Part shown: one piece after another, positions 3,521 through 32,461 of the stretch
How the letters are laid out: each line of letters starts with the position of its first letter
How positions within the stretch are numbered: position 1 is the first letter of the stretch
Source: Bacteroidota bacterium
GTDB lineage: Bacteria; Bacteroidota; Rhodothermia; Rhodothermales; JAHQVL01
DNA length: 32,639 nucleotides
Direction: 5' to 3'
Assembly (NCBI GenBank): GCA_039111535.1
Contig: JBCCIM010000055.1
Location: 1-32,639 of the forward strand
Translations under genes and position numbers: made by a program
The notes under the pieces: model-generated
Told to the model about the DNA's origin: nothing
Databases searched by the model: none
Seen by the model: only the letters and a program-made list of their open reading frames with translations

Positions 3521-5812
3521 CTACTCTTCCATTGCGGCGTCCGCCTCATCTTCTGTTTCAACAAAGGTATTCCCCACCAATTCCAGCACAATACGATCTG
3601 CATCGTATATATCATCCAGCACTTCGAGGATACCGCGTGCATCTACAGAAATAGCGCGCGCCGTTTTGTCGCGGTAGACATATTCATTGGGGAGCGACTC
3701 GACATTCCCGTCGAAAATCAAACCGACCAACTCCAGGTTGGCGTTTACCAGGGGTGAACCCGAGTTGCCGCCTGTAATGTCATTTGTTGATACAATGTTG
3801 AGGGGGGTTGCAAGATCAAAGCCAGTCGGCCGTTCCCGCCAGCGCTCAGGTAAATCCCACTCACTGCCCGACCCATAAGTAAAGAAATGGTCGTACAGCC
3901 CATAAAATGTGGTTTTGTACGGTGCAACGGTCCCATTGTAATTGTACCCTTTAACCACACCATCAGACAACCGTAGCGAGAATGTGGCATCGGGGGGAAT
4001 GTCTTCACCCAGCACATCCAGGCGCGCGCGCGCTAGCCGGGCACTCAGGTTTTCTTCCCGATCTGCAAAACTGCCATTTTGTTGGCCAAGCGTAAAGTAC
4101 AGGGGGCCTAACGCATTGATAATGGGCACTGCAGCATCTTTGCTAGACAAAAAGCCACTGTCAAGCAATGCATAAAATGCACTGGAATCGGTCAACGCTG
4201 TGCTATCGACCAGCGTTGTCGCCAACTCTTCCGGGGTTTTGCCCTGCAAGATTCCACGCAACGTTGGGTCAGTTGGCCCGAGGTACTTTTTGATTTCATT
4301 GATACGCGCCAACACAAAAGCTTTCTCTACTTCGTCAGGGAAGTCTTTGATTTCGGACGCGTCATTTTTGATGCCATCCAGCGTCTCCTGCGGTGCACCG
4401 CGCTGCTTAAGCAACGCATACGCATAGCCGTAGAGCGCACGGGTAAAGACCCGAGAACCAATGGAGGTGCCAAAATACGTCAGGGCACCTGACTGGCGGG
4501 CTGTTGCCTTTTTCGAAGACTGCACAGCGCGCAATTCCCGGAGCACCACCCCGTATTTCTTTTTAAGATCTGTATCCGCTTCAATCGCAGCAGCAAGTTC
4601 TTTCTCGGCAGCCCCTTTTCGCGCCATCAGATATTCATCCTGCAAGCCTTCAAGTTGTCCGGCATTGGCCTTGATTGAATTGGCTATGGAGAAGTAGGTA
4701 TTGCGCAGTTCATCGAGGCTGTCATCGTCGTCGTTTGCTTCGAGGTACGCTTTGAGTATTTCAGAGCGCGTATCCAGTACTTCGAGTTGCTGCGGCAAGG
4801 CATAATCGCGTTCATACTCAAGCTGGCTCACAGTATTGAGCCGGCTGGTTGAACCCGGACTCCCCACCACAAACACCACATCGCCTTCGCTTACCCCGGT
4901 CTTGCTCCAGGGAAAGAAGTATTCAGTTTTGAGCGGCATACCTTCGTAGTCATAGACGCGAAAGAAGGTCATATCCAGCGAATACCTTGGATAAGTGAAG
5001 TTGTCCTCTTCTCCACCAAATTTCCCAAGCTTGAGCTCCGGTGCAACGACCAAACGTACGTCGTAATACCGTTTGAACGTATATGCAGAGAACTTGCCCC
5101 CGTTGTAAAGAGAGATGACTTGCACCTGCAAGGTGGTATCTCTACCCTTGGCATCGTTTGTCAGGCTCCGTTCGAGCGATTCGATGCGGCGCTTGCGGGC
5201 ATCAGCCTCTTCTTCGTCATTCTGAAAATCAGGCACACCATCGTTCACCCGTTTGGTAACATCCTGTATGTCGATCAGTTGGTCAACATAAAGTTCTTGA
5301 ACACGACGTTCCTCATCGATGGAGCGGGCATAGAAGCCACGATCAAGGAGTGATTCACCCGGCCGGCTCACGTCTGTGATGCTTTCGCGGGCGCAATGGT
5401 GATTGGTAAGCACCAGGCCATTTGGCGAAACAAAGGAAGCAGAGCAATTGTCGCCAAAGCGCAAGGCGCCACGGCTTGCCAGTTCAAACCACTGGTCTGT
5501 CAAGTCGAGATTGTACGCTTCTTTGAAGTAGGTCAATGGTGGATTATCGAAGGTCCACATTTTGCCAGCATCAAAGGTACCGGTTGTCACGGTATCCAAT
5601 GGTGAAACAGGTACATCAGCCCTGGTTTGGCGCTCGGTTACGACTCGATCCTCCGGCGCTTTCTTGGGCCGTTCGGTAATGACAGCCGTTTCACTGGTTG
5701 TTGTGGCGCACCCTGCGATAACGAGCAATGCAGACACAACAAGAACCATATATGCGCGTTCCGGGAAGCGCCGCATGGCGTGCTGGACCGAAACTGAAAG
5801 GGATTTAGACAT
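3521..5812 (-). CDS. S46 family dipeptidyl-peptidase, predicted lipoprotein (DPP7/DPP11 family)
   Basis: A serine peptidase of the S46 family, which removes dipeptides from the N-terminus of peptides in the periplasm or at the surface. The trypsin-like halves are visible: GLVLTNHHC holds the catalytic histidine (H138/H139), EEDNFTYPRYSLDMTFF the aspartate region and TGGNSGSP the nucleophile (S684). After the serine the sequence reads FDGN. In Porphyromonas DPP7 a glycine sits at this S1 position, where DPP11 has arginine, so a DPP7-like preference for non-acidic P1 residues is inferred. The N-terminus has a hydrophobic segment ending VIAGC (C35), a lipobox, then about 45 residues of linker, so it should be membrane-anchored. 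It follows a close paralogue by 51 bp and probably shares its transcript. A terminator follows. Confidence 0.93.
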   Translation of the reverse strand: MSKSLSVSVQHAMRRFPERAYMVLVVSALLVIAGCATTTSETAVITERPKKAPEDRVVTERQTRADVPVSPLDTVTTGTFDAGKMWTFDNPPLTYFKEAYNLDLTDQWFELASRGALRFGDNCSASFVSPNGLVLTNHHCARESITDVSRPGESLLDRGFYARSIDEERRVQELYVDQLIDIQDVTKRVNDGVPDFQNDEEEADARKRRIESLERSLTNDAKGRDTTLQVQVISLYNGGKFSAYTFKRYYDVRLVVAPELKLGKFGGEEDNFTYPRYSLDMTFFRVYDYEGMPLKTEYFFPWSKTGVSEGDVVFVVGSPGSTSRLNTVSQLEYERDYALPQQLEVLDTRSEILKAYLEANDDDDSLDELRNTYFSIANSIKANAGQLEGLQDEYLMARKGAAEKELAAAIEADTDLKKKYGVVLRELRAVQSSKKATARQSGALTYFGTSIGSRVFTRALYGYAYALLKQRGAPQETLDGIKNDASEIKDFPDEVEKAFVLARINEIKKYLGPTDPTLRGILQGKTPEELATTLVDSTALTDSSAFYALLDSGFLSSKDAAVPIINALGPLYFTLGQQNGSFADREENLSARLARARLDVLGEDIPPDATFSLRLSDGVVKGYNYNGTVAPYKTTFYGLYDHFFTYGSGSEWDLPERWRERPTGFDLATPLNIVSTNDITGGNSGSPLVNANLELVGLIFDGNVESLPNEYVYRDKTARAISVDARGILEVLDDIYDADRIVLELVGNTFVETEDEADAAMEE

Positions 5813-5863
5813 AATTTCTGTGATTCAATACACTTAAAATGGGGTGAGTAGGTACGCTGGCGA

Positions 5864-8032
5864 TTATTCGCCACCGCCCACTGCTGCGTCGTCACTGACA
5901 AGTACATCATTGGCCAGTTCTTCAACAATACGGTCCGCTTCATACACGGCATCCAGTGCTTCCAACATGCCACGGGCATCAACTGAAACTGAACGGGCAC
6001 GATCTGGCAAATAGATGTAGTTACCCGACAGGCTTTCGATGTTGCCGTCAAAAATAAGCCCGACCAACTCCAGGTCTTTGTTGACAATCGGAGAACCAGA
6101 ATTGCCCCCGATGATGTCATTGGTTGACGCAAAGTTTACGGGTACCGAAAGGTCCAGGTCTTTAGGTGCAGCTTTCCACCGTTCGGGCAAATCCCACTCG
6201 CTTTCGCTGCCATATGAATGGTAATGATCGTACAGCCCAAAGAAGCTCGTAAAAGGTGATGCATACGTGCCATTGTATGGATAGCCTTGCACTACACCAT
6301 CCGCGAGGCGGAGTGAAAACGTTGCATCTGGTGGTATTTCGTTTTGATAAACGGCATAGCGCGCACGACCAATGCTGCTGGCGATTTCACTTTGCTGGGC
6401 ACTCAGGCCGGCAAAGGCGCTTTGATACGTCTGGTACGTTTCGATAAAGCTATCAACCAGTTTGATTGCTGGATCCATGGCGTCCAATGTGCCTGCATCA
6501 AGTGCTTCGGTCAATTGCGCCTGTGATGCCAGCGCAGACGACCCGACAATGCCCTGCGCACGGTCTGTAGCAGACTGCCCAGTTAACAGGGCACCGACAA
6601 GTTCGCTTTCGGTGCCAAATGCAGCCGTCATATCCTGCAACCGCGTTTTCAGAAACTGGAGATCAAGTCCGGCAGGTGTGTCTGCGATGCCCAGTAGTTG
6701 CTCTTTTAATGGCGCCAGTTGCTCGCCGCCGCCAGCCGCCATACGATCCAGGTAGCCATGGGCAAGGATGGCGCGCCGTAATAGAGCAGCGGAATATGTC
6801 CCACTTGTCAGCGCAAAAAAGGCAGCATGCTCTTTGCTGTAGGCGCGCATTTCTTTTTGAATGGCCGCCATATCCTCCATCAATGAGCCATAATCTGCAG
6901 CGAGGTCATCATCAGCTGAAATCGCTTTAACAAACTGCCCCTCCGCGTCCCTTCGTCGGGCCATAATCACGGGATCTGCGAGCGCAGCCAGTTGGCCGGC
7001 ATATGCCTTTTCAGCATTCAAAAGAGAGAAAAGCTGGTTGCGGACCGCATTTTTTGCATCATCTGTTGTCGCTGCATCCTGGTAGTCGCGTAACGCCTGG
7101 ATGTGACTCTTGATGAAGGCCAGTAAATTTTTGTCCGTCATATCCCGGCGTCCTTCAAGCTGGGCAACCGTTTCGAGCCGGCTGGTGCTGCCAGGATTTC
7201 CTATCACAAAGACGGGCTCCCCAATTTGTGCGCCATCCATGCTCCACAAGAAGTAGTGTTCAGGCTCAAACGGGACGTTGTCATCATAGACCCGAAAAAA
7301 GGTCATATCGAGCGCATAACGAGGGAACGTAAAGTTATCAGCATCTCCTCCATAGTAGCCCATTTGCAGTTCAGGCGTGAAGACGAGTCGCACGTCATCG
7401 TAACGCTTGAACGTATAGGCAGCGTATTTACCGCCGTGGTAAAAAGGAATAATTTCAATAACGTATCCGGCCTCTTCCCCCCCCAATCCATCCAATAACA
7501 TAGCCGTTACGGCATCGATGGTATCTTGCCTGGCCTGCGCACGTTCAGCATCTGTTTCGCCGCGCATTTCTGCTTCCCGTACTGCCTGGGTAACATCTTC
7601 AATGGCAACAAGCTGATCAGCATAGTAGCCGGGTACCTGGCGCTCCTCTTCAAGCGTAGTGGCATAAAAACCGTCTTCCGTCAACCGCTCGCCTGGATTG
7701 GACACCTGGGTCACAGCATTGCGGGCGCAATGGTGGTTTGTGAGCACCAGCCCATATCCCGACACAAACGACGCTGAACATCCGGGAATACGGAGTGCGC
7801 CAAGCCTGGCTGTATCAAACCATGACTGAGATGGCGTAAAGTTATACGCTTCTTCAAAGTACTCAAAAGGTGGATGATCGAACGTCCACATTTTGCCGTT
7901 ATCAAACCGGCCGGCTTTGTCTGCGTCCTGGCCGTATGCCGTATGTGGCAACAATACAATCAGTGCCAGCAGACTTGCGCAGACTATGCGCAAAGTGGAT
8001 CCGGCTTGAATCATTAGTTTTTCTTGTCTCAT
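5864..8032 (-). CDS. S46 family dipeptidyl-peptidase, secreted paralogue
   Basis: Second S46 peptidase, 722 residues, close to the usual family length. It has a type I signal peptide (hydrophobic residues about 13-34, cleavage near AYG-Q), histidine in GLVLTNHHC (H100/H101), the DNFTFPRYALDMTFF aspartate region and nucleophile S645 in GGNSGSP, followed by FDGN as in its neighbour. The middle helical cap domain (about 280-540) is more divergent between the two copies than the catalytic halves. It is the first gene of the pair, so a promoter should lie upstream, where dyads at 8107-8132 are found. An in-frame ATG six codons in (8014) is an alternative start. Both enzymes suit an organism that feeds on proteins or peptides, as expected from the family. 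Confidence 0.93.
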   Translation of the reverse strand: MRQEKLMIQAGSTLRIVCASLLALIVLLPHTAYGQDADKAGRFDNGKMWTFDHPPFEYFEEAYNFTPSQSWFDTARLGALRIPGCSASFVSGYGLVLTNHHCARNAVTQVSNPGERLTEDGFYATTLEEERQVPGYYADQLVAIEDVTQAVREAEMRGETDAERAQARQDTIDAVTAMLLDGLGGEEAGYVIEIIPFYHGGKYAAYTFKRYDDVRLVFTPELQMGYYGGDADNFTFPRYALDMTFFRVYDDNVPFEPEHYFLWSMDGAQIGEPVFVIGNPGSTSRLETVAQLEGRRDMTDKNLLAFIKSHIQALRDYQDAATTDDAKNAVRNQLFSLLNAEKAYAGQLAALADPVIMARRRDAEGQFVKAISADDDLAADYGSLMEDMAAIQKEMRAYSKEHAAFFALTSGTYSAALLRRAILAHGYLDRMAAGGGEQLAPLKEQLLGIADTPAGLDLQFLKTRLQDMTAAFGTESELVGALLTGQSATDRAQGIVGSSALASQAQLTEALDAGTLDAMDPAIKLVDSFIETYQTYQSAFAGLSAQQSEIASSIGRARYAVYQNEIPPDATFSLRLADGVVQGYPYNGTYASPFTSFFGLYDHYHSYGSESEWDLPERWKAAPKDLDLSVPVNFASTNDIIGGNSGSPIVNKDLELVGLIFDGNIESLSGNYIYLPDRARSVSVDARGMLEALDAVYEADRIVEELANDVLVSDDAAVGGGE

Positions 8033-13651: not shown

Positions 13652-16447
13652 CTAGTTATCCCAGTTTTTGCTTGATCTGCACTCAAGTCTATTCATCGCA
13701 CGTTTGCGGCGTTTTCTGCTTTGATCTTCAAAAAGGCCGGCTGCTTTCTCACACAATTCCGGGTTCACTTCCAGAACCGGTCCAACAACGTCGATAAGAT
13801 CAAGCAAAGACTCAAAATCTTCATCAGACCACTCATGTTCTAGCTCGTATTGCAAGTGCTCAAGTTCGAGTAGGGCCTCTTCCAATTCCAATCCAGATAA
13901 GGTTAACTCGTGCTCTAACTCAGCAAGTGCATCTTCATCAAATTTGAGGCCCTCCAGACTATAAGCCACTTCTTCGAGTGCATCAGCCGTCAGGCTAAGC
14001 GATAACTCACCGATGGCAAGTCCTATTTGGCCGGCAGAAGCACCAATTTCTGCCATTGCCTCGCCAAATGCTGCTCCATCCCAATCGTTATCATTGTCCC
14101 AATCCTGGTCGTTATCGTTATCCCAGTCCTGGTCGTTATCGTTATCCCAGTCATTATCGTTGTCCCAATCCTGGTCATTATCGTTATCCCATCCATGGCC
14201 AGCATCTGCATCCCAGCGATCATCACCATAATCGAGCTCACTCAGTGCCATGGTTGCGTAGCGACGCACTTCACTATTTTCGTCCTTTAGCGCTTTAGTT
14301 AACGCATCAACTGCACTTACATCGCCTATTTCGCCTAATGCAATGGCTGCATACTTCCTGATTTCAGGGTCTTTGTCTTTCTGCAGCAATTCGGTAAACA
14401 ACAACATGCTTTCTTCATCTGCACGGTCGGAGATAGCCATTACAGCGTGGCTCCGTACATCCGGGTCTTTGTCTTTAACAGCTTTTCGAAGTAACCGAAG
14501 TGACGCCTCATCATCATACTCACCCAATGCCATAACGGCAGCGCGACGGATATCGGGGTCTTTATCACTGAGCGCCTTGCCTATAGCAGGCAAGGCAGAT
14601 TCATCTTCGCGATCTGCAAGCCCGTATAGTGCATATCGACGTACTTCAGGGTCCGCATCTTCAAGCATTTCGATGAGAATGGCCGTTGTACTATCGTCAC
14701 CATTATCAACGATACCCATCAGTGCATAGCGACGAATCTCAGGGTCACGGTCATCTAAAACGGTAACAAGGGCCTCAACAGCGCGGCGATCATCAACATC
14801 AGCCAATGCAATTGCAGCATATTGACGCACTTCTCGGTCGCGGTCAGCAAGGGCCTTGATGTACACGTCAAGTGCTTCATCAGCATCCAGTTCGCTCAGT
14901 GCCATGATTGCAAAACGACGCACTTCCCTGTCAGAATCACGAAGCGCCAACGCTGCAATCATGTTTACAGCACCCAGGTCATTTATTTCGCTGAGCGTTT
15001 GCAAGGCATGCTGGCGTACTTCAGCATCTTCATCGCTAAGCGAATTACGCAATGCTTTTATTGCCATTTTTCGGGCGCGACGCTGCTCTTCACTGGTATC
15101 AGCTACAGCGCTTCTACGATCGCGCCTGAGCGCACGTGAATCCCTGAGGGCAAAGTCATTATCCCTTTCCCACTCAGGCTCGACGCCAAGGCTGTTTTCA
15201 GCTTTACCGTCTGCATGGTTTTTGTTCAGGAAAACAAACCCCGGCGCAGTACTCTGCGAAATCAATGTATTAGAATTGGATTCTGCAAGCTGCCAGGGGC
15301 TCAGCGCTGTAATAGGTAACATTACTGCTGTAGCAAGAATGCAGGTAAGGACCGTCCCAACGCGGTTCAACGTCCGTCTTTTCCGCGCAGGATCCAGGAT
15401 ATCAACTACCCGACCTTCAAGTTGCGACGGCTTTGCCATTGAAATGGTGTTCAGTGGAGATACCCACGACATTTTGAGCGAGCGCGCGATATCGAGCAAG
15501 TGGCTTGCATAAGCAGACGCTTTCATGCCCTGAGAGAGCACCAAATCGTCACATGCTTTTTCCTGTTCGATGCGCATTCGCTGCAGGCCCTGCCATGCCA
15601 TCGGATTAAACCAGTGCAAGGCGCAACCCAGCTGCGCGCCAAACTGCGTGAGGGTATCCCAGCGTTTGATGTGTGCCATTTCATGCAGTAGCACATAGCG
15701 CCGGCGCTCTTCCGACCAGTCATCAGCATCGATGGGTAACAGAATCACCGGACGCCATGCTCCCCACGTCATGGGAGACGAAACACTTGCACTCATTTTA
15801 AGCGCAACAGGGCGATAAATTAGCAAACGATCTGCAAGCTCGTCTGTCAGGTCATCCCAATCATCACCTTCGGGCGCGCGTGACTGTATGGTAATCCACC
15901 AGGCACCAGCCAGTCCTGTGAAGGTCCAAAACAAAACAGCTGCGATACCCAACCCCCAAACCCCAAGAATGAGCGTGGACCAGTGGGCGTCTTTTACATA
16001 ATTGATAATCGGGCTCAACACCCAGTTGGTATTTTCGCGTGCGGGTGTGGCATAAACAGCTGCTGCGTCTGATTCCGCTGCGGTCTCGCGTTGCTCAGGA
16101 AACCGTTCTGTTGTATTTGGAGGGGTTGTCAGCCAAACTGGCGCTTCGGCGTCGGTTGACCGCAAGCCGGCTTCAGGAAAGGCCTGGGTATTTTCAGCTG
16201 CTAGCTGCGCTTCAAAAGGCTGCGGTATAAGCGGCACAGACACACGGGGTAAAACAGCAGAGAACAGTGGCAGCATCAATATCATGATCAGCGCCGTAGC
16301 CCAAATCAGGTGCCGCGCTGCGGCAGCAGAGCGAGAGAGCATGCCGGTAAGAATGCGCGCACCCAATAAAATCAGTAGGCCCTTGATAAACAGGTCTGCC
16401 AGTACCATCAAGATATCATATAAAGGTTCATCTACAATAAAATTCAT
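13652..16447 (-). CDS. M56 (BlaR1-like) membrane metallopeptidase fused to HEAT repeats and a Trp/Asp-rich repeat
   Basis: Residues 1-390 are a BlaR1/MecR1-type protease. Predicted membrane helices lie at about 13-33, 45-66, 157-186 and 363-383, with zinc motif HEMAH (255-259) and downstream ligand glutamate E296 in EQEKACDD. The usual C-terminal penicillin-binding sensor is absent. Instead there are nine HEAT-like repeats at 463-740 with a 31-32 residue period (DPEVRRYA-type cores), a tandem WDNDND/WDNDNDQD segment (752-790) and an acidic, leucine-rich helical tail. By membrane topology, the part after the fourth helix should be periplasmic, as the sensor is in BlaR1, but I cannot confirm this. 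It starts two bases after the BlaI-type gene, so the pair is one operon and this protein should inactivate the repressor on a signal. No beta-lactamase gene is adjacent. Confidence 0.93.
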   Translation of the reverse strand: MNFIVDEPLYDILMVLADLFIKGLLILLGARILTGMLSRSAAAARHLIWATALIMILMLPLFSAVLPRVSVPLIPQPFEAQLAAENTQAFPEAGLRSTDAEAPVWLTTPPNTTERFPEQRETAAESDAAAVYATPARENTNWVLSPIINYVKDAHWSTLILGVWGLGIAAVLFWTFTGLAGAWWITIQSRAPEGDDWDDLTDELADRLLIYRPVALKMSASVSSPMTWGAWRPVILLPIDADDWSEERRRYVLLHEMAHIKRWDTLTQFGAQLGCALHWFNPMAWQGLQRMRIEQEKACDDLVLSQGMKASAYASHLLDIARSLKMSWVSPLNTISMAKPSQLEGRVVDILDPARKRRTLNRVGTVLTCILATAVMLPITALSPWQLAESNSNTLISQSTAPGFVFLNKNHADGKAENSLGVEPEWERDNDFALRDSRALRRDRRSAVADTSEEQRRARKMAIKALRNSLSDEDAEVRQHALQTLSEINDLGAVNMIAALALRDSDREVRRFAIMALSELDADEALDVYIKALADRDREVRQYAAIALADVDDRRAVEALVTVLDDRDPEIRRYALMGIVDNGDDSTTAILIEMLEDADPEVRRYALYGLADREDESALPAIGKALSDKDPDIRRAAVMALGEYDDEASLRLLRKAVKDKDPDVRSHAVMAISDRADEESMLLFTELLQKDKDPEIRKYAAIALGEIGDVSAVDALTKALKDENSEVRRYATMALSELDYGDDRWDADAGHGWDNDNDQDWDNDNDWDNDNDQDWDNDNDQDWDNDNDWDGAAFGEAMAEIGASAGQIGLAIGELSLSLTADALEEVAYSLEGLKFDEDALAELEHELTLSGLELEEALLELEHLQYELEHEWSDEDFESLLDLIDVVGPVLEVNPELCEKAAGLFEDQSRKRRKRAMNRLECRSSKNWDN
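14078..14191 (-). repeat. Tandem repeat coding WDNDND(QD)
   Basis: In-frame repeats of 18 and 24 bp encode alternating WDNDND and WDNDNDQD units, six copies of the W-D core. The DNA is near-identical between units (CAATCCTGGTCGTTATCGTT-like on the plus strand), which indicates recent expansion or slippage. Dense Asp/Asn suggests calcium binding, as in other DxDxD loops; this is inference. Confidence 0.9.
14228..15061 (-). repeat. Nine HEAT-like repeats, 93-96 bp period
   Basis: Conserved V/I-R cores fall at residues 477, 509, 540, 571, 602, 633, 664, 696 and 727 of the M56 protein. Each repeat reads approximately KALxDxDPEVRRYAxxALxx. The units are similar enough in protein sequence to indicate internal duplication. 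Confidence 0.9.
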
Positions 16448-16449
16448 GG

Positions 16450-16836
16450 CTAGCGGCCTTCTTCTTTAGCGTTTTTGATGAGGGCAGAAAGGCGATCCAG
16501 TTCCTCTTCAGAAAGGTCATCTGACAAATCGATCAATGCAGCCATGGCCTGTGAAACAGAGCCTTCAAAGAACGTTGCCAAAACATGATTTAGCGCAGAC
16601 TTTTTTGCGCGCTTTTGCGAAACAGTTGGCTTGTATATATACCGGGTGCCAACTTTGTCATGCTGGAGGTGCCCCTTCTCTACCAGTATCCTCAACATAG
16701 CACGCACAGCAGAATAGCTCGGCGGGTCAGGAATTTCGTCCATTACTTGCGCCGCTGTAGCTTTGCCTGTACGATAGATGGCGTCCATTATCTGACGCTC
16801 TCGCCGGCTTAGTTTTTCGTGTAATGCTGAAGCCAT
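16450..16836 (-). CDS. BlaI/MecI-type transcriptional repressor
   Basis: A 128-residue winged-helix repressor: LSRRERQIMDAIYRTGKATA, then AVRAMLRILVEKGHLQH and GTRYIYKPTVSQ match the N-terminal DNA-binding part of the BlaI/MecI/CopY family. The helical C-terminus (about 80-128) should dimerise. Family members repress their own operon until cleaved by the cognate M56 protease; that protease is encoded two bases downstream. The promoter region carries two matching dyads (16888-16909 and 16946-16965), which I take as its operators. Without a beta-lactam sensor in the partner, the inducing signal is unknown. Confidence 0.95.
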   Translation of the reverse strand: MASALHEKLSRRERQIMDAIYRTGKATAAQVMDEIPDPPSYSAVRAMLRILVEKGHLQHDKVGTRYIYKPTVSQKRAKKSALNHVLATFFEGSVSQAMAALIDLSDDLSEEELDRLSALIKNAKEEGR

Positions 16837-16887: not shown

Positions 16888-16909
16888 AGGTGCTAAATTT
16901 TTAACACCT
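16888..16909. promoter_or_regulatory. Operator 1 of the repressor-M56 operon
   Basis: Imperfect dyad AGGTGCTAAAT/TTTTAACACCT with one arm mismatch and the centre mismatched. It begins two bases after the -10 box in the direction of transcription, so it covers the start site, a position suited to repression. An outer GTTACA (16880-16885) / TGTAAC (16914-16919) pair surrounds it. Confidence 0.75.
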
Positions 16910-16911
16910 AA

Positions 16912-16940
16912 AATGTAACAGAAATCCACCTCTATGTCAA
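16912..16940 (-). promoter_or_regulatory. Promoter of the repressor-M56 operon
   Basis: On the minus strand a perfect -35 box TTGACA (16940-16935) is separated by 17 bp from TACATT (16917-16912), a good -10 box. This fits a sigma-70-type consensus, not the TTTG/TAnnTTTG pattern of many Bacteroidota promoters. About 75 bp remain to the repressor start. Confidence 0.7.
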
Positions 16941-16945
16941 GCCGA

Positions 16946-16965
16946 TGTGCTAAATTTTTAGCACA
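16946..16965. promoter_or_regulatory. Operator 2 of the repressor-M56 operon
   Basis: TGTGCTAAATTTTTAGCACA is a perfect dyad apart from its central T/T pair. It lies five bases upstream of the -35 box. It shares the core GTGCTAAATTTTTA-CAC with operator 1; the centres are 57 bp apart. The two sites bracket the promoter. Confidence 0.8.
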
Positions 16966-30353: not shown

Positions 30354-30559
30354 CGAAGCTGGAGAGGTTTAATGCTAATTGCCTTAGGCCGGAGCGTAGA
30401 ATGGCAACACAGGTACATCCGGCGAATTGGGGGGGCATCTTTCTATCAAAAGCGCATCATCTTCACAAAACGCGACATCAGATCTGTAACTTCTTCTTTT
30501 TAGTACCCGTAAATCTTACATTATCCTCCAACAAGTCACCTGATTATTGCTGCCGAGCC

Positions 30560-31792
30560 ATGACTCAATCCTCATCTAAAAGTGTTTCGACCCCTAAGAA
30601 AATTGCCCTGCTTGTCCTTGGCGCCCTGACGATCCTTACGTTTGTCAATATCCTGGAAGCCGGCGTGAGCAAGCTGCGCGGCAGTGACCGTGCGATGGCC
30701 GCAACCGAAAAAGGGTATGAAGAAGGCTTCCTTCCGATGGATGAAGTTGCCGTACGCACCGATGCTGATGACGGAGAGTTGATGATTGAGGAGTCATTCA
30801 AGGTTTCTTCAGGTGATAACTTTGTTGTTGGCGTAAACGACGCAGATCTATATGTTGAAACCAGCGACACAGACAATGCGAAGGTTGAGGTGTACCTCAA
30901 GTCCAACAACATGAATAAAGGCCGCGATTACTTCGAAAACCAGAATTACGAAGTAACCCAGGATGGCAACAGCGTTTTTGTAAAAACGTATCCAAAACGG
31001 AAAAACTTTAACTGGTCGGGTATTCGCAACCTGCGCATTACGGTGCGTGCCAGTATTCCATCTGATTTCAATGTAACCCTCAAAACCGCCGATGGAGACA
31101 TCGTGCTGGGTGAAACGAGTGGAGAAATAATGATCCAGACTTCAGATGGCGACGTAAATACCGAATTCCTCTCCGGTCCATCCATCAACATTCGGACGTC
31201 AGACGGCGACATTGCAACCGAATCCATGGATGCTGCGCAAGTGTCTGTTGCAACGTCTGATGGCGATATTCGCCTTGAAGATGTTGATGCCGATGACATT
31301 TCAGTTCGGACGTCAGACGGCGACATCATGGCGGCGCGGCTTACCGGTGAATCTTCTGTTTCGACGTCTGATGGAGACATCCGCATCAAAGCGATTGAAG
31401 GTGCAGAAACAGCTGTACGCACTTCAGATGGAGATATTGTGACTGAGATGGTGGATACCAACAACGCCCAGTTCCAAACGTCGGATGGCAGCATTACCCT
31501 CAACAGTGTTGCCGGCGATCTGACAGCCAAGACCTCCAGTGGTAATCTCCGGGTTGGCCTTACGGAGGGCGGCAAAGTCTACCTGCGCTCAGGTGATGGA
31601 GATATCCACATCAGCGCGCCAAGCGATTATTCCGCTGAACTGATGCTCCGCGGGGAACGTGTACGGATTGCATCTGGTTTTCAATTCGACGGTAAACTCA
31701 AGAAAAACGAAGCGGAAGGTCGTATCAATGGGGGCGAGTTCACCCTCGAAGCCCGTACATCGGACGGAGAAGTAGTTTTTAAGGAAAACTAA
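30560..31792 (+). CDS. DUF4097-family repeat protein with N-terminal membrane anchor
   Basis: The ATG at 30560 begins MTQSSSKSVSTPKKIALLVL and gives one membrane helix (about 14-36) with the rest outside the cytosol; the frame extends further upstream to 30401 but that part reads as non-coding. From residue 176 the protein is built of ten 18-19 residue repeats, each starting with TSDGDI or a close variant, then further strands ending RTSDGEVVFKEN. This is the DUF4097 beta-strand repeat, expected to form a right-handed beta-helix-like stack. Family members are of unknown role, some linked to envelope stress. The gene is 63 bp before a second DUF4097-like gene and likely co-transcribed, although a weak terminator-like structure lies between. 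Confidence 0.85.
   Translation: MTQSSSKSVSTPKKIALLVLGALTILTFVNILEAGVSKLRGSDRAMAATEKGYEEGFLPMDEVAVRTDADDGELMIEESFKVSSGDNFVVGVNDADLYVETSDTDNAKVEVYLKSNNMNKGRDYFENQNYEVTQDGNSVFVKTYPKRKNFNWSGIRNLRITVRASIPSDFNVTLKTADGDIVLGETSGEIMIQTSDGDVNTEFLSGPSINIRTSDGDIATESMDAAQVSVATSDGDIRLEDVDADDISVRTSDGDIMAARLTGESSVSTSDGDIRIKAIEGAETAVRTSDGDIVTEMVDTNNAQFQTSDGSITLNSVAGDLTAKTSSGNLRVGLTEGGKVYLRSGDGDIHISAPSDYSAELMLRGERVRIASGFQFDGKLKKNEAEGRINGGEFTLEARTSDGEVVFKEN
31085..31612 (+). repeat. TSDGD repeats, 54-57 bp period
   Basis: Ten units begin T-S/A-D-G-D or a variant (TADGDI, TSDGDV, TSDGDI x5, TSDGSI, TSSGNL, SGDGDI). Two units share an identical stretch TTCGGACGTCAGACGGCGAC, while others differ at synonymous sites, so the array is old with some recent copying. 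Confidence 0.9.
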
Positions 31793-31799
31793 GTATTTT
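31773..31799 (+). terminator. Weak terminator-like structure between the two DUF4097 genes
   Basis: TAGTTTT (31773-31779) pairs with AAAACTA (31785-31791) over a 5-base loop, followed after two bases by ATTTTTT. The stem is AT-only apart from one pair and overlaps the stop codon, so partial termination at best. Confidence 0.3.
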
Positions 31800-31855
31800 T
31801 TGCACAGTCCGGGCTTTGGTATTGATTCACGGCCACCATTCCCCGAAATTTGGGC

Positions 31856-32461
31856 ATGGCGAGAATCACGCGCCCGGCACCTGACAAAGAGGTACGGGCT
31901 TTACAAAAGAAATTTGACGTCGCTCCTTCAGGGCGTCTGTTCATCAGCGTCCCAGGCGCTGACCTTGATCTGATTGCAACAGATTCTGACAAGGTTGAAG
32001 CTGAAGTTTACGTAAAGTCGCAATCCAAAAACGAGGCACTTGCGCTCACCGACCGCATTAAGCTGCGGTTGCGTGCAGTTGACAAGCAAACGGTCAGGAT
32101 CGAATCCAAGTCCTTCTATCAGAATGGATTTGTGGGTTGGAATACGGACGATGCAATCCAGATACGGCTGCTCATTCGTCTGCCCCGCGCATTTAATGTG
32201 GATATTCAGGCATCCGGCAGTGCAACCTCTATTAAGGCCGTTGAAGGCAAAGTGAGTATTCAGTTGTCAGGCGGCTCGCTGAACGCAACAGAATTGCAAG
32301 GCCGGCTGGAAGTCATGGGATATGGCTGCACCCTCGACATCGACCAGTTCGAAGGATCCAATCTGGAGCTGGTTGCTGCATCAAGTGCCCTCACAGCCTC
32401 GAACGTAAAGGCCAAGCAACTAAGTATCCGCGCACCCAACAATTCAAAAATGCTGTATTAA
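31856..32461 (+). CDS. DUF4097-like beta-strand protein without signal peptide
   Basis: I chose the ATG at 31856 (MARITRPAPDKEVRALQKKF); a TTG two codons earlier is the frame limit. The 201 residues resemble the non-repeat region of the upstream gene: FISVPGADLDLIATDSDKVE parallels VGVNDADLYVETSDTDNAKV, and VYVKSQSKN parallels VYLKSNNMN. The later part has strand-rich segments (GKVSIQLSGGSLNATELQGR) but no TSDGD array. No signal peptide or membrane helix is visible, so it would stay in the cytosol unless the start is wrong. It looks like a degenerate or specialised paralogue of its neighbour. Confidence 0.75.
   Translation: MARITRPAPDKEVRALQKKFDVAPSGRLFISVPGADLDLIATDSDKVEAEVYVKSQSKNEALALTDRIKLRLRAVDKQTVRIESKSFYQNGFVGWNTDDAIQIRLLIRLPRAFNVDIQASGSATSIKAVEGKVSIQLSGGSLNATELQGRLEVMGYGCTLDIDQFEGSNLELVAASSALTASNVKAKQLSIRAPNNSKMLY

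Follow-up and report, generated by a model that had tools for sequence, protein, structure and literature searches.

What does a BlaR1-type protease respond to when HEAT repeats occupy the place of its penicillin-binding sensor? Most discussion of BlaR1 treats it as a beta-lactam receptor, and the question is raised by a gene of a Bacteroidota bacterium located on a contig of 32,639 bp, the whole of which is referred to here as the window. A preliminary description of the gene had proposed a proteolytic switch responding to a signal other than beta-lactams, calcium among the candidates. The present analysis bears out a conserved switch of the BlaI/BlaR1 type with a predicted extracytoplasmic module that is not of the beta-lactam-binding kind, and gives no support to the calcium idea. 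We put at roughly 60% the probability that the locus is a self-contained proteolytic switch of this type, in which the sensor has been exchanged for a periplasmic HEAT array that recognises a polypeptide ligand.

Protease core and proposed sensor module

The gene is read on the minus strand from position 16447 to 13652, a detail absent from the preliminary description, whose coordinates were correct. Its open reading frame has no internal stop and encodes an M56 (BlaR1-type) metalloprotease of 931 amino acids with a C-terminal HEAT array (M56-HEAT protein). Hydropathy analysis revealed four strong membrane segments, TM1 to TM4 (residues 12-30, 48-66, 159-177 and 363-381; positions 16358-16414, 16250-16306, 15917-15973 and 15305-15361, on the minus strand like all features of the gene), and the AF2 model has helices at residues 7-36, 42-65, 156-188 and 358-380. 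A weak fifth hydrophobic segment (residues 801-819, score 1.2) lies in the tail. The charge pattern fits the four segments and, together with homology to BlaR1, predicts that both termini are outside the cytoplasm (N-out/C-out), with the HEAT array in the periplasm.

The Pfam profile Peptidase_M56 (PF05569) matches residues 146-348 (E 3.6e-33; 115.4 bits against a curated cut-off of 31). This match, the AF2 model (pLDDT mostly 86-96 over residues 161-320) and an alignment with Staphylococcus aureus BlaR1 (8exs), which spans residues 212-375, delimit a predicted cytoplasmic gluzincin domain at residues 185-360 (15368-15895). The zinc motif HEMAH (residues 255-259; 15671-15685) aligns with H201ExxH of BlaR1, and EKACD (residues 296-300; 15548-15562) aligns with E242xxxD. 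In the cryo-EM study of BlaR1, these two motifs and Asp210, Tyr261 and Arg294 are described as catalytic or near strictly conserved (PMC9834060). Their counterparts H255, E256, H259, D264, E296, D300, Y313 and R346 (BlaR1 H201, E202, H205, D210, E242, D246, Y261 and R294) do not vary among 39 sequences of the order. At the place of the scissile Ser283-Phe284 of BlaR1 the alignment has Ile-Ser, residues that are variable in relatives, so that autocleavage as in BlaR1 is unsupported for the M56-HEAT protein.

Nine HEAT repeats, found by Pfam, repeat scanning, AF2 and structure matches, follow TM4 at residues 456-738 (15082-14234) and are predicted to form a periplasmic solenoid. HEAT_2 matches occur in six stretches (E 4.7e-66), and core motifs lie near residues 474, 506, 537, 568, 599, 630, 661, 693 and 724, i.e. 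at steps of 31-32 residues. In structure searches the solenoid (pLDDT about 70-90) matched alphaRep proteins (TMt 0.72-0.78), with looser matches to importin-alpha and the PP2A scaffold; these are folds used for binding proteins or peptides. Both the HEAT_2 profile and the alphaRep-like solenoid thus place the tandem helical pairs in the HEAT superfamily. As the AF2 model was built on a 27-sequence alignment and has a pTM of 0.44, its local folds are usable but not its domain arrangement.

HEAT arrays are also generic scaffolds, and their repeat number varies widely among relatives of the M56-HEAT protein. Both facts would fit a reading, in our judgement rather doubtful, in which the array serves as a fixed scaffold, keeping the protease within a complex or gripping a partner, while the signal enters elsewhere, via a separate receptor or the 90-residue loop between TM2 and TM3. 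This loop, predicted to be periplasmic, is indeed long (residues 67-155). A further point in favour comes from the BlaR homologue of Mycobacterium tuberculosis, which we take to be Rv1845c and in which the signal may likewise enter at another place. Like the M56-HEAT protein, it combines an M56 protease and a BlaI repressor without a penicillin-binding sensor, but it has no sensor domain at all where the M56-HEAT protein carries a large HEAT module (PMC9834060). Against the scaffold speaks the location of the array: BlaR1 has its sensor at this very place, the C-terminus behind TM4, which is also where domains are exchanged in paralogous proteins (see below).

The solenoid is followed by a WDNDND(QD) tandem repeat (residues 753-791; 14191-14075), whose tandem organisation is also evident in the DNA, and then by a helical, acidic tail with two cysteines (residues 792-931, Cys899 and Cys923; 14074-13655). 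Residues 801-931 include 32 D/E and 11 K/R, and the tail is uncertain in the AF2 model. Binding of Ca2+ by the WDNDND repeat, as envisaged in the preliminary description, could in principle gate the protease. Residues 736-800 indeed contain 17 overlapping DxDxD positions, and in the homologue of genome G030 the corresponding part is a degenerate stretch rich in W, D and N. Nevertheless, a metal sensor is improbable: only one of these positions reads DxDxDG, the region is predicted to be disordered (pLDDT about 26-32), and the exact pattern, present in four copies here, was found in none of 59 relatives. A WDNDND-like stretch is likewise absent from the homologue of G001, the nearest relative, which belongs to the same family. 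The best interpretation of the array, whose expansion is accounted for by tandem duplication, is a species-specific acidic linker that expanded recently. Apart from calcium, the anatomy given in the preliminary description was reproduced with correct positions, namely four membrane helices, an intact zinc site, nine HEAT-like repeats, the W/D/N repeat and the acidic tail.

The same description had the penicillin-binding sensor replaced, and this agrees with the domain searches. Pfam identified HEAT_2 after TM4 and no penicillin-binding or class-D beta-lactamase-like domain anywhere in the protein; a motif scan found neither SxxK nor KTG after TM4; and the NCBIfam model blaR1_generic scored 96 bits against a cut-off of 400. 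The protein is therefore an M56 protease, yet not a beta-lactam receptor of the BlaR1/MecR1 type. An ordinary beta-lactam receptor would share the chassis and the repressor, and a candidate operator is situated 22-23 bp upstream of a PF00144 serine hydrolase gene (contig C97), but on the domain evidence such a function is very improbable.

Repressor, operators and candidate targets

A gene for a BlaI/MecI-family repressor of 128 amino acids (16450-16836, minus strand) ends 2 bp before the start of the M56-HEAT gene, exactly as described earlier. Its product matches Penicillinase_R (PF03965; E 6.5e-29; 101.1 bits, cut-off 22.6) and the penicillinase repressor structure 1p6r. Genome and sequence scans revealed two palindromic 18-bp candidate operators which flank a candidate blaI promoter, TTGACA-17-TACATT (16912-16940, minus strand). 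Operator 1 (core 16947-16964), located upstream of the -35 region, has perfect arms of the form GTGCTAAA-N2-TTTAGCAC and reads TGTGCTAAA-AA-TTTAGCACA; operator 2 (core 16890-16907), just downstream of the -10 region, has one mismatch and reads GGTGTTAAA-AA-TTTAGCACC. The homologous operon of G001 has a matching two-operator layout, and in G030 one clear operator is present upstream. TTGAC-type promoters also lie between the operators in relatives.

Genome scans were compared with a Markov simulation, for which 111 kb of the source genome served as training data. Three sites with at most one mismatch were found, two of them at the blaI promoter, whereas about 0.03 are expected by chance in 6.6 Mb. 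With up to two mismatches the number increased to seven, which exceeds the chance expectation of 1.2 just modestly.

The third close site (C44:1439-1456) is an exact copy situated some 34 bp upstream of a gene for an Erythro_esteras lipoprotein of 413 amino acids (PF05139, E 1.2e-25; EreC in the PDB, E 5.3e-5). By our own reading the protein starts with a lipoprotein-like signal sequence, MRKVLTFFFLFVYSVAC. Given an exact operator upstream of a secreted esterase-family lipoprotein, an envelope or antibiotic-type response is probably under the control of the switch, and this gene is its best putative target, although membership of PF05139 is no proof of macrolide hydrolysis. In relatives, an esterase target with an operator of the M56-HEAT type is not conserved. 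The serine hydrolase gene on C97 and a methyltransferase gene on C113 were also considered as targets; their sites have two mismatches, too little above chance for a claim. A two-mismatch site (GTGCGAAAAATTTAACAC) was also seen in G001 upstream of a gene for a small secreted helical-repeat-like protein (L145:2291-2716, contig C166).

The locus resembles the BlaR1/MecR1 and BlaI/MecI systems of S. aureus and Bacillus licheniformis in its BlaI-family operon, its M56 gluzincin, which has four helices and retains each of the named catalytic residues, the C-terminal domain after TM4 and the palindromic operators at the promoter. It differs in the sensor, which consists of nine HEAT repeats and an acidic tail instead of a class-D beta-lactamase-like domain with SxxK, and further in the lack of the Ser-Phe autocleavage residues, in the operator sequence and in the putative esterase-family target. 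Autoregulation, two paired dimer sites and very small regulons are described for BlaI of Clostridium thermocellum in the part of that study considered here, and the M56-HEAT switch is similar in these respects; in the same part, the motif is of the GTCTAT type, unlike the operators found here, and a HEAT module is not mentioned (PMC8457756).

By homology with these systems, a BlaI dimer would occupy the two palindromes at the blaI promoter and a few distant operators and thereby block transcription. The M56-HEAT protein, with its four membrane helices, cytoplasmic zinc protease and periplasmic solenoid, would bind, or lose, a polypeptide ligand; the change would be passed via TM4 to the protease, which may then cut its own BlaI and so allow expression of the operon and its targets. 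The operator, repressor, protease and a first candidate target gene are all named, which makes the switch directly testable.

Conservation and paralogous M56 proteins in the order

Pfam searches of 60 genomes placed M56-HEAT proteins in at least eight genera, a minimum because the M56 genes of these genomes were opened in part. Besides the source they are represented by L068 (G030), L069 (G001), L070 (G008), L071 (G021), L076 (G003), L078 (G050) and L079 (G043). A tree of the protease core united the source protein, L068 to L071 and L090 in one supported clade (97/93) and L076, L078 and L079 in a second HEAT clade (100/99); proteins with KYGV repeats and of the DUF4097/coil type formed other clades. 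The operon of G001 is flanked by the same response-regulator gene as in the window, and that of G030 by a gene resembling the window's PD40-repeat protein. As M56-HEAT genes, continuous and stop-free in all seven further cases, occur in seven other genera and gene order is common to G001 and partly to G030, a chance fusion, frameshift or assembly artefact, the case against which the preliminary description had cautioned and for which nothing was found, is ruled out for practical purposes. The fusions next to BlaI-type genes for which it had advised a search thus exist, the closest relatives sharing operon, operators and a neighbour gene. Phylum-wide, a search at E 1e-25 recovered the close subfamily in the same order only, remoter fusions being below its reach. 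A related-locus search with the single protein returned mostly remote M56 proteins of Clostridia and two Nitrospira HEAT proteins, none of them a fusion.

The source genome contains seven M56 genes and eight blaI genes, one of the latter at a contig end; protease and repressor are thus kept in one genome while the C-terminal module changes. Paralogues in this genome and in the order are built on the same chassis, most with an upstream blaI gene and a palindromic operator of their own, and differ from the M56-HEAT protein in their C-terminal modules (M23, TonB_C, DUF4097 or other repeats), from which we conclude that C-terminal swapping is common here. One of those in the source genome (L107:1129-3120, contig C71) has two peptidoglycan peptidase domains of the M23 (LytM) type joined to the protease and is accompanied by a BlaI gene and TACGAA/TTCGTA operators; another (L007:1186-2898, contig C3) carries a TonB C-terminal domain. 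At five of the six other intact blaI promoters inspected in the source genome, the palindromes were clearly different. The related operator, of the ATGCTAG/CTAGCAT type, belongs to a KYGV-type paralogue on contig C46, and hence the two switches may cross-talk.

In this paralogue (L105:2256-4718), and in L072, L073, L075, L077, L080, L087, L091 and L097, TM4 is followed by repeats of about 25 residues of the form KYGVDxxYIxELxxxGY. These proteins form their own clade, and most have operators of the ATGCTAG/CTAGCAT type; in L105, the one scanned, the Pfam match covers the M56 part only. Operator-like sites also occur near the orthologue of a DUF5916 gene in several relatives. This gene was rejected as a target of the M56-HEAT switch because its site in G001 and the operator of the KYGV-type paralogue have the same sequence. 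A GTGCTA-N-TAGCAC palindrome near the start of the DUF5916/CBM9 protein was observed in seven genomes (L116:945-3302 on source contig C33, and L167 to L172), and the exact identity in G001 suggests that this protein is a conserved target of the KYGV-type paralogue.

A lead to the ligand of the HEAT solenoid comes from the second HEAT clade, where in G043 (L079:3728-4753), G050 (L078:3797-4879) and G003 the M56-HEAT gene is immediately followed by a gene for a secreted HEAT protein. In G030 a homologue unlinked to the M56-HEAT gene has an operator-like site at its start. The N-terminal region of this protein was detected in these four of the 60 genomes and in no other, all with an M56-HEAT gene; by our arithmetic such co-occurrence has a chance probability of about 1 in 7,000, a figure of lower true weight because three of these genomes come from a single family. 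No homologue was detectable in the source genome, which leaves a HEAT-HEAT ligand as just a lead there. Tentatively, the solenoid might recognise a secreted HEAT-type or other periplasmic polypeptide and derepress a macrolide-esterase-like envelope hydrolase among other genes, the switch being one of a family with interchangeable sensors that operate in parallel in one cell through mostly distinct operators. In G043, blaI, the M56-HEAT gene and the secreted HEAT gene were found clustered with a sigma-factor-like ORF (5242-5661) and further HEAT-repeat ORFs (L079:1107-8611, contig C146).

The preliminary description had not recognised the sensory module as described, and our literature search, which left most subscription journals outside, found no M56-HEAT protein either. 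While the chassis is known, the HEAT sensor module is undescribed in the literature searched. If the proposed function is confirmed, BlaI/M56 pairs would represent a general bacterial route from an outside signal to DNA via repressor cleavage, beside two-component systems and anti-sigma proteolysis, and HEAT arrays would be a sensor class.

Elsewhere in the window, two adjoining genes (30401-32461) encode DUF4097 (toastrack) proteins, and TSDGDI repeats are numerous in the first; in relatives, M56 proteins have this fold as a C-terminal module. Two adjacent, related genes at 3521-8032 encode peptidase-like proteins of 763 and 722 amino acids with a TNHHCAR motif, which presumably resemble S46 dipeptidyl-peptidases.
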